DNA of 64,000 nucleotides from Vulcanimicrobiota bacterium (GTDB taxonomy: Bacteria > Vulcanimicrobiota > Vulcanimicrobiia > Eremiobacterales > Eremiobacteraceae). The notes below the pieces were generated by a model that saw only the letters and a list, made by a program, of their open reading frames with translations, had not been told where the DNA came from and made no database searches. Below, one piece after another: positions 6,177 to 9,419 of the stretch (position 1 is the stretch's first letter; every line of letters starts with the position of its first letter). Location of the stretch: the NCBI GenBank assembly GCA_013290125.1, contig JABCYQ010000005.1, positions 1 to 64,000 on the forward strand, written 5' to 3'. A program made the position numbers and the translations under genes.

Positions 6177-6746
6177 ATGGCGCACTTGCGCGAAATCACG
6201 CTGCCGGAGACGAAGCCGGCGTTGGAATGGGTCAACGGCCGGGCGCTCCAAAAAGTGAGCCCGAAGCGGAGACACGCTCTGGCGCAGACAAAATTCGCTG
6301 TCGCCTTGGATTCGTGGGCGTGCTCCGCTCGCGCCGGCATGGTCGGCACCGAATGGCGCTTCCGACTCGCGCCTCCCGACGAAGTCAGGCGTCCGCTCGT
6401 GCCAGATGTCGCATTTCTTTCATACGCGCGCATGCCATACGCCGCGCAGCTCGAAACTGAAGTGCCCGACATCGCTCCGGACATCGCTGTTGAGATTCTG
6501 TCGCCGGGCGATCGAGCGGCCGACGTCGCAGAAAAAGTTCGCGTCTATCTGGCCTCGGGCTCCGCGGTCGTCATTCTCGTCGACCCGAACTCGCAGACTG
6601 TTATGATCCACGAACCAAGCGGCACTTGGTCGCTTGGCGCAGATGACGTGTTCGAACACGTCGCGCTCCCCGGTTTTTACCTTGCTGTCGTGGATTTATT
6701 CACGCCACCGCCACCGCCGATTTCGCAAATCTCATCGATCCCGTAG
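6177..6746 (+). CDS. Uma2-family (DUF820) putative restriction-endonuclease-fold protein
   Basis: A 189-residue protein with the Uma2/DUF820 layout. The N-terminal part contains LEWVNGRALQKVSP, followed by VPDVAFLS and PDIAVEILSPGD, where the acidic residues correspond to the PD-(D/E)XK-like core of the family, and then KVRVYLASGSAVVILVD. The biological role of these proteins is not established. It has a close paralogue at 30473-31015 with the same opening and the same promoter sequence. The start is supported by that paralogue. Confidence 0.88.
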   Translation: MAHLREITLPETKPALEWVNGRALQKVSPKRRHALAQTKFAVALDSWACSARAGMVGTEWRFRLAPPDEVRRPLVPDVAFLSYARMPYAAQLETEVPDIAPDIAVEILSPGDRAADVAEKVRVYLASGSAVVILVDPNSQTVMIHEPSGTWSLGADDVFEHVALPGFYLAVVDLFTPPPPPISQISSIP

Positions 6747-6831: not shown

Positions 6832-7362
6832 TCAGCGATTTGCGCGGACGCGTTTGTCGCACGCGTCGCAGAAATACGTCAGCTTCGCATCGATATCGAA
6901 GACCGAATGGCTCAGGTACATCGCGCAGCGAGTATTGTGGCAATGCTTGAGCGCGAACGAGTGGCCGAGCGCGTGCACGCATTCCTTAAGCGTGCGTTGG
7001 AAGAGCGCGTCGTCGTTCGGCGCCTCGTTCGTGAATTCGGGCCGCAGCCGGAACGTCGAGACGACGCCCACGCGATCGGTGTCGCTCGCGTCCCCATAGA
7101 TGAACGGATGCGACGTCTTGTACAGATCGCTTGCCATGATGCCGAGCAGAAACCCGTCGCGCGCGGGATATGCCGCCAGCAGACGATTGAAGACCGTGTT
7201 GAGAAAGAACTGACCGCGCGTGAGGTTGGCTTGCGTCGGCGAGAGGGTGAGCGGCTTTTCAATTGCGAACTTATGGAAGAATCTCTCCTCCAGACATGGC
7301 GCCAATCGTTCGCAGAAACCGGATCCGACTCCATTGATCGGAACGAGACTTATCTTTTCCAA
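6832..7362 (-). CDS. Archaemetzincin-like protein with altered active site
   Basis: A 176-residue homologue of archaemetzincins, a zinc metallopeptidase family with the signature HExxHxxGxxHCx4CxMx17CxxC. Here the three zinc-ligand positions are kept (H130, H134, H140), as are the Cys residues C141, C146, C165 and C168 and M148. The catalytic Glu after H130 is Ala (HALGH), and the family Gly is also Ala (residue 137). The start is the TTG at 7362, because LVPI is the usual N-terminus and longer forms would run through acpS, which is divergent. It probably binds zinc but may not cleave peptides. Archaemetzincins are common in archaea and rare in bacteria. Confidence 0.8.
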   Translation of the reverse strand: MEKISLVPINGVGSGFCERLAPCLEERFFHKFAIEKPLTLSPTQANLTRGQFFLNTVFNRLLAAYPARDGFLLGIMASDLYKTSHPFIYGDASDTDRVGVVSTFRLRPEFTNEAPNDDALFQRTLKECVHALGHSFALKHCHNTRCAMYLSHSVFDIDAKLTYFCDACDKRVRANR

Positions 7363-7446
7363 TACCGATCCGGCCGCGCAAGCTCGGCCGCTCCAACGCG
7401 CCGTGAGTTCGGTCGGATTCCGTTTCAGTCCTCCGGATGTCGTCAC

Positions 7447-7851
7447 ATGATCCTCGGAGTGGGCATCGATGTCGCAGATGTTGCGCGCTATCACTTCGAT
7501 GAGATTCAGCTTGCGCGCTTTGCGAAGAAGATCTACACCGAGGCGGAGATGGCGCACGCGATGAAACATCGTCACTTCGCCGAACGGCTCGCCGGCGCGT
7601 TTGCGGCGAAAGAAGCGACGCGCAAAGCATTCGGCCACGCGATCCCGTGGCGGCTGATGGGCGTGCGGCACGAGCGCAGCGGCAAGCCCTACATGGAATT
7701 GCTCGGGCGCGCGTCGGCCTTACCGGCCTTGCGCGGCGTCAGGAGGATGCACGTGAGCATCACACACACGAAGTCCACGGCTGTGGCGGTCGTCATATTG
7801 GAAGGCGACGAGCCGCAGGCAGCCGCATCGGCCGAGGTGGCCGCGCGATGA
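7447..7851 (+). CDS. acpS: Holo-[acyl-carrier-protein] synthase
   Basis: A 134-residue 4'-phosphopantetheinyl transferase that moves the phosphopantetheine arm from CoA to acyl carrier protein. The magnesium-binding motifs are both present: GVGIDVADVAR with Asp8, and FAAKEATRKA with Glu56. The length is typical of AcpS. The stop overlaps the nnr start (ATGA), so the two are translationally coupled, as in many bacteria where acpS and nnr are neighbours. Confidence 0.95.
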   Translation: MILGVGIDVADVARYHFDEIQLARFAKKIYTEAEMAHAMKHRHFAERLAGAFAAKEATRKAFGHAIPWRLMGVRHERSGKPYMELLGRASALPALRGVRRMHVSITHTKSTAVAVVILEGDEPQAAASAEVAAR

Positions 7852-9419
7852 ATGCACTCACCGCCGCCGAGATGCGCGCTGCCGATATGCGCACGGTCGA
7901 CGATGTCGGCATCCCGGAATCCATCCTCATGGAATCCGCAGGTCGCGCCGTCGCCGATCTCGCGCGCGACTTCGTCGACGACTTGGAAGGCGATCCCATC
8001 CGCATTGCGATCGTCGCCGGTCCCGGTAACAACGGCGGCGACGCGCTCGTCGCGGCACGCCATCTCATGCAGCTCGGTTTCGAACCAGACGTCTACATGG
8101 CGGCGAAAGCCAGTGATTGCAACGAACTGTGTCGGGTACAGCTCGATATCATGGAAGGTCTCGGCGCGTCGATCAGCTATCTGCGCGATCAATCCCCCGA
8201 GTTTTTCCGGTCCGGCCTGCGCGCCGCCGCGCTCATCGTCGACGGTCTGCTCGGCACCGGCGCGAGCGGTCCTTTGCGCGAGCCGTATAAGAGCTGGGTC
8301 AACGAGATCAACATCGCCGGTCGCGAAGTGATCGCCGTCGACGCCCCTACCGGCGTCGATCCGTCGTCGGGCGGCGTTCCCGGACCGGCTGTCACTGCAA
8401 CTGCCACGGTCACGATGGCTGCGCCGAAGGTCGGACTCTTGCTCTATCCTGCAGCCTCATATGTCGGCGAGCTCTGGGTCGCGAACATCGGAATTCCTCC
8501 GTCGGTGCTCGCGGAGTCCGGCGGGCGCTATCACGTGATGACCAAGGAACAGTTCTTCTATTGGCTGCCGCATCGCAGTCCGCAGGCGGACAAACGGACC
8601 GCGGGCGACGTGGTCATCATCGGCGGCAGCGCGAACTTCGTGGGCGCACCCGTGATGGCTGCGCAAGGCGCATTGCGCGCGGGCGCGGGCTATGTGACGA
8701 TCGCGTGCCCGTCGAGCGCGGCAGCGGCGATCAGCTATCACACTCTCGAGCCCGTCCTCGCGCCATGGCCGGCGACTGACGACGCGCAGACGGTCGTCAA
8801 CGCACTACTCGAGACGACGCGCCACGCCGGCGCGGTCGTCATCGGTCCCGGTCTCGGCCGCGACGAGTTCACGCAGACGATCGTACGCTCGTATCTCGCG
8901 GCTACGGCGCGACCGCTCGTCGTCGACGCCGACGCGCTCTTCGCACTCTCGGGCCACACGGATATCATCAAAGATAAGAAGGCGGTGCTCACGCCGCATG
9001 CGGGCGAATTCGCGCGGTTGTTGGGCGAACACGCCGATGCCGCGATCGCCAATAGGATGAAGGCGGCCGACGAATTCGCGACATCGCTGGATGCGACGCT
9101 GCTGCTGAAAGGTCCGCGCTCGATCATCGCGACGAAGGAAGCGTCCTACGTCAACCTGACGGGCAACTCGCTTCTGGCCACGGCCGGTTCGGGCGATGTG
9201 TTGAGCGGCATGACGGGAGCCATGCTCGCTGCGGGTTGTTCATCGCGGCAAGCCGCGGCAATCGCGGCGTTCTGGCACGGCGTCACGAGCGACTACCTCG
9301 CATCGCTGGAAAAGCACAGCATCACGGCGAGCGATATTCCCGCGGCGCTGCAAGACGCGCTGAAGTGGCTCGACGAGCGCGAAGAGGACGACGACGGCTA
9401 TCTGACGCGCGTGGTCTAG
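7848..9419 (+). CDS. nnr: Bifunctional NAD(P)H-hydrate epimerase / ADP-dependent dehydratase
   Basis: A 523-residue fusion that repairs hydrated NAD(P)H. The N-terminal epimerase domain (YjeF_N, about 1-215) shows GPGNNGGDALVAARHL and DAPTGVDPSSG. The C-terminal dehydratase domain (about 235-510) shows GGSANFVGAP, VIGPGLGRDE, VVDADALFAL, LTPHAGEFARL and TAGSGDVLSGMTG. The ATG at 7848 overlaps the acpS stop by four bases. Domain order and length are those of the standard bacterial fusion. Confidence 0.95.
   Translation: MNALTAAEMRAADMRTVDDVGIPESILMESAGRAVADLARDFVDDLEGDPIRIAIVAGPGNNGGDALVAARHLMQLGFEPDVYMAAKASDCNELCRVQLDIMEGLGASISYLRDQSPEFFRSGLRAAALIVDGLLGTGASGPLREPYKSWVNEINIAGREVIAVDAPTGVDPSSGGVPGPAVTATATVTMAAPKVGLLLYPAASYVGELWVANIGIPPSVLAESGGRYHVMTKEQFFYWLPHRSPQADKRTAGDVVIIGGSANFVGAPVMAAQGALRAGAGYVTIACPSSAAAAISYHTLEPVLAPWPATDDAQTVVNALLETTRHAGAVVIGPGLGRDEFTQTIVRSYLAATARPLVVDADALFALSGHTDIIKDKKAVLTPHAGEFARLLGEHADAAIANRMKAADEFATSLDATLLLKGPRSIIATKEASYVNLTGNSLLATAGSGDVLSGMTGAMLAAGCSSRQAAAIAAFWHGVTSDYLASLEKHSITASDIPAALQDALKWLDEREEDDDGYLTRVV

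Follow-up and report, generated by a model that had tools for sequence, protein, structure and literature searches.

The window, a stretch of 64,000 nucleotides of bacterial DNA, harbors an M54 archaemetzincin-like gene whose product is probably a cytosolic, zinc-stabilised pseudopeptidase that binds a partner and has been kept for a non-catalytic task. The support in sequence for such a pseudopeptidase is fourfold: an alanine fixed at the place of the catalytic glutamate, purifying selection, seven metal ligands kept, and no second M54 gene. According to the mechanism that we propose, a single Glu-to-Ala change on the stem of the family-level clade would have deprived the archaemetzincin fold of peptide-bond hydrolysis. 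The fold would be held by zinc bound at the Cys4 knuckle and probably at site 1 too, and the protein would bind its partner via conserved surface on the EERF helix and on the C-terminal zinc domain, in the role of a scaffold or a regulator. Two counterpoints concern this scheme: the conserved residues may serve fold stability instead of partner binding, and a histidine specific to the clade, His152, lies near the active site and could in principle assist catalysis.

The M54 gene and its active site

The gene lies at 6832..7362 on the (-) strand, as an open frame with a TTG start coding for 176 amino acids, without the catalytic Glu. In aligned relatives a start codon (ATG, GTG or TTG) is present at the same place, and therefore the coordinates given by the first-pass annotation are right. 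The product scores 58.2 bits against Pfam PF07998 (Peptidase_M54), above the cut-off of 24.4, so the M54 match is not due to chance. With the NCBIfam archaemetzincin model NF033823 it obtains 132.7 bits, under the curated cut-off of 145; two relatives from the same clade obtain 143.2 and 145.2 bits, and Glu-bearing relatives 160-173. The window's own genome contains one M54 gene, whose product is likely cytosolic, judging by the absence of a signal-like N-terminal stretch. An AlphaFold2 model of the protein, built from an alignment of 45 sequences, has a mean pLDDT of 94.8, and its five top matches among solved structures are all M54 chains, the first being Archaeoglobus fulgidus AmzA (3zvs; E 5e-16, TM 0.82/0.90), so that the metzincin fold as in AmzA is predicted to be intact.

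Archaemetzincins are recognised by the fingerprint HEXXHXXGXXHCX4CXMX17CXXC (PMC3427221). The window protein reads H130-A131-L-G-H134-S-F-A137-L-K-H140-C141-H-N-T-R-C146-A-M148-...-C165-D-A-C168, that is, HALGH at the place of HExxH, with the third His and the whole Cx4CxM...CxxC part (H140, C141, C146, M148, C165, C168) present. The helix of the active site, which supplies two His metal ligands (H130-A131-L-G-H134), is encoded at 6961..6975 (-), and the third ligand of site 1, His140, which aligns with the third His of HExxHxxGxxH and is found in 14/14 clade genomes, at 6943..6945 (-). The Cys4 zinc site is encoded in two halves, Cys141 and Cys146 together with the Met-turn Met148 at 6919..6942 (-), and Cys165-x2-Cys168 at 6859..6870 (-). 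The first-pass annotation had described the zinc ligands and four Cys as kept around a HALGH motif, and this holds on a full-length M54 frame with three His and four Cys. Its reading of the codon of Ala131 (GCG, 6970-6972, (-) strand), one A-to-C step away from GAG, is also correct. Two further features lie outside the fingerprint. The stretch E25-E26-R27-F28, with which helix 1 ends (7279..7290, (-)), is near-invariant in the phylum and is not found in the archaeal AmzA structures. His152 (6907..6909, (-)), four residues past the Met of the Met-turn, is Asn in 97% of Glu-bearing relatives.

The replacement of the metzincin Gly (HxxGxxH) by Ala, also noticed at first pass, occurs in the window's genus only (three genomes: L001, L032 and L033), and the 11 remaining members of the Ala clade retain Gly. 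By its distribution, this change is younger than the Glu-to-Ala change, having arisen inside the clade and solely in the window's genus.

Fixation of alanine and selection in the family-level clade

The HALGH motif is present in all 14 genomes, from 9 genera, of the family-level group to which the window belongs, and each of these genomes has one M54 copy. In a tree of M54 built without the motif columns, the 14 Ala sequences form one clade (support 100/100) on a long stem branch, and the group branching next to it as well as most of the remaining class have HELGH. An Ala clade with Glu-bearing neighbours points to a single Glu-to-Ala change on the stem of the window's family, the ancestor having most simply carried Glu.

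Among the columns with at least 95% fixation in Glu-bearing members of the class, 41 are unchanged in 14/14 clade members, with the three His ligands (His130, His134 and His140) and the four Cys among them. Freer positions in the clade include Tyr111, Gly112, Asn118 and Gln122, which belong to a loop (111-122) just ahead of the active-site helix, and N152H is fixed. As a whole, the pattern fits a relaxed constraint around the cleft with the metal ligands retained. Since both sets of ligands are retained under selection in the clade, the protein might serve to store, sense or traffic zinc, with a labile site 1 and a structural Cys4 site. We regard this as rather unlikely, as related lineages have lost site 1 entirely yet keep the gene, and zinc-transport genes were not found among the conserved neighbours identified.

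It is slightly harder to accept that the protein is still a hydrolase, perhaps with a special substrate, that relies on another base such as the clade-specific His152 or Glu127. The three His are indeed present in 14/14 members, even though His was lost in several of the other altered lineages, and N152H became fixed in the very same clade. However, the exchange of Glu for Gln in the archaemetzincin AMZ-tk (E183Q) leaves minimal activity (PMC4681839), the loop residues fixed in relatives are relaxed in the clade, and His152 is also present in the Glu-bearing relative L095.

The loss of the peptidase centre, the freer loop 111-122 and the long stem branch could likewise be signs of a gene that has lost its function and is drifting to a pseudogene, but this is very improbable. 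The median pairwise dN/dS within the Ala clade is about 0.13, with a median dS of about 1, compared with 0.04-0.125 in four Glu-bearing groups, values that come from a simple pairwise method with dS near 1. Stops are absent, gene order is kept, and the 41 columns mentioned above are unchanged throughout; a pseudogene was rejected on the basis of dN/dS. Finally, an error of sequencing or assembly, or a recent mutation in a single strain, has a negligible probability: GAG to GCG is one base from an active motif, but the Ala is shared by 14 genomes that span 9 genera and stem from several independent projects, which rules it out, and synonymous divergence between clade pairs is around 1. The first-pass annotation had asked whether Ala is fixed in close homologues and took Glu in all close relatives as the mark of such an error; all 13 nearest relatives carry Ala. 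The non-proteolytic reading of the window protein is well supported at the level of sequence.

Spread of the family and repeated loss of the catalytic site

Of the 149 genomes of the phylum that were searched, 121 carry M54; within the window's class, a class of soil bacteria of which M54 is a core gene, it is present in 109 of 117. The statement of the first-pass annotation that the family is rare in bacteria therefore fails for this lineage. Viral relatives were not found, so that a viral origin was rejected, as was spread by plasmids, with one distant plasmid match (Bernardetia, 32%).

The intact HExxH...H set is present in 75 of the 118 M54 proteins scored in the phylum (about 64%), so catalysis may matter there, and it is altered in the other 43. 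The Glu is replaced by Ala in 15 (14 in the clade and one in a distant family), by Asp in 10, by Gln in three and by Asn in one, and the remaining 14 have lost at least one His, with the motifs YALGR...S (eight species of one genus), RSIGH, RALGR, CGLGR, HAVGR, HELGR and QKMGH. The catalytic state changed at least 11 times on the full quick tree and at least 10 times on a careful tree of 66 rows, where at least seven changes are needed when sequences are scored as intact or altered alone.

These parsimony counts rest on a tree in which many forks are weak, but every column was compared on that one tree. On the full phylum tree, the Glu column requires 11 changes against a median of 12 per column, the three His columns four to five each, and Glu25-Glu26-Arg27-Phe28 one or two, and Cys141, Cys146, Cys165, Cys168, Asp79, Arg123 and Asp158 none. 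Moreover, the YALGR group has a dN/dS of 0.058, below that of most Glu-bearing groups. Unchanged Cys columns, a near-fixed EERF stretch and a constrained YALGR group together indicate, at the level of these alignments, that it is not the peptidase centre that selection keeps but the Cys4 knuckle, together with the EERF helix and a small number of core residues. As the catalytic residue has been lost in the whole of the window's family and independently in several others, while the zinc Cys never change, the protein is probably kept for a non-cutting job, and across the class it is probably a binding role, not proteolysis, that is maintained by selection. The EERF stretch is absent from archaeal AmzA sequences, and in a pattern scan of genome contigs for this stretch the matched records all belong to genomes of this phylum.

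A wider proposal, which we put forward tentatively and with rather less than even confidence, is that the archaemetzincin of Eremiobacterota is a class-wide core protein that is non-proteolytic throughout, including in its HExxH members. The parts essential to the protein would be the Cys4 knuckle, together with the EERF helix and a handful of invariant residues, the peptidase centre being optional and repeatedly eroding; archaeal AmzA proteins, for which peptidase activity has proved difficult to show, may match this picture. What deserves to be followed is the wider pattern, a core gene of the whole class in which the zinc knuckle stays the same while the catalytic site is lost again and again. 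Archaemetzincins are widespread, and the phylum offers a natural experiment in which the features under selection can be told apart from those that the name of the family leads one to expect; about one third of its M54 proteins are probably mislabelled by the term "Zn-dependent metalloprotease".

Some lineages present particular features. All three His ligands are gone in the eight species of one genus with YALGR...S (L053-L060). Asp replaces Glu (HDxxH) in a clade of ten proteins (L014, L018, L019, L022, L028, L029, L081, L086, L104 and L115), of which the Asn-bearing L127 is a relative. Two distant genomes, G005 and G011 (L066/L067 and L074/L075), harbor an altered M54 (HALGH, QKMGH) together with a second M54 that keeps HExxH, whereas class members have a single copy.

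Comparison with known systems and genomic context

The closest known parallel is CarG of Myxococcus xanthus, an HQxxH protein that lacks protease activity, binds two zinc ions but not DNA, and works through its binding to CarD (PMC8156234). Like the window protein, it has an archaemetzincin fold of about 170 amino acids, keeps the His and Cys ligands and has both the catalytic Glu and the metzincin Gly replaced (PMC8156234); CarG requires its Cys in vivo, and in AmzA the Cys4 site has a structural role (PMC3427221). By analogy with CarG, the window protein would be a zinc-stabilised binding protein. The first-pass annotation had proposed a new, non-proteolytic role for a zinc-binding protein. 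Strong purifying selection, the single copy and the retention of three His and four Cys argue for the non-proteolytic and metal-binding parts of this proposal, but the role is not new in kind, because CarG and an NCBIfam family of CarG type (NF033824, non-proteolytic archaemetzincin-like protein) are already known.

There are also differences, since Glu is replaced by Gln in CarG and by Ala in the window protein, and carG is coupled to carD whereas the neighbour of the window M54 gene is acpS. The window protein scores 82.5 bits against NF033824, whose cut-off is 250. In 14/14 clade genomes, the only full-length match to PF02559 (CarD_TRCF) is in a frame of Mfd size, shorter in one incomplete genome, which we take to be Mfd from its length and the known domains of that protein. 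A weak partial match is present in a frame of about 780 amino acids in some clade genomes. Elsewhere in the class, almost every listed PF02559 match falls in a frame that either has the size of Mfd or is cut by a contig end, and CdnL-sized frames occur only in deeper families of the phylum. An orthologue of CarG with a CarD partner was thus rejected, since the score falls far short of the cut-off and no match of CarD/CdnL size was found in the family, and the CarG route via a CarD partner appears closed for the window protein, as far as can be seen from these genomes.

The AmzA proteins of known structure (M54; 3zvs, 4axq, 2x7m and 3lmc) share the fold (TM 0.80-0.83 by query length) and the Cys4 plus three-His layout with the window protein, but they have HExxH and the Gly and lack the EERF helix motif; the crystallised AmzA proteins, in which HExxH is intact, were inactive in standard assays (PMC3427221). 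AMZ-tk of Thermococcus kodakarensis is an M54 member with the same extended motif but, unlike the window protein, it cleaves casein and needs its Glu (PMC4681839). Outside the family, dead ADAM metzincins have kept their fold for protein-protein interaction after loss of the active site, with repeated losses within one family (PMC11266112). They are, however, animal membrane proteins, whereas the window protein is a probably cytosolic bacterial one with a Cys4 zinc site, and the text of that review does not mention M54 or CarG.

The M54 gene is divergent from acpS, coding for holo-ACP synthase (7447..7851, (+); PF01648 and TIGR00516 above cut-off), the end of which is overlapped by an NAD(P)H-hydrate epimerase/dehydratase gene of YjeF type (nnrD/nnrE, 7848..9419, (+); PF03853 and PF01256). 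Based on the acpS profile, M54 lies directly beside acpS on the opposite strand at 108 loci, essentially the whole class, with nnrD/E beyond acpS in nearly all class loci. This divergent arrangement suggests shared regulation and identifies no partner. Between M54 and acpS lies the element GGAGGACT (7427..7434, (-)), in its sole copy in the window. It is present in 12 of the 14 Ala-clade genomes, 37-79 nucleotides before the M54 start and often with GGTKGAAGG about 10 nucleotides further on, and outside the clade it was found within 250 nucleotides before M54 once only, in a distant family (L067); it could be a regulatory element. On the other side, a gene for a putative nuclease of Uma2 type (6177-6746, (+)) adjoins M54 in the window. 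It was not detected beside M54 at the remaining loci of the family, apart from that of the near relative L032 (80%), and may be a recent insertion.
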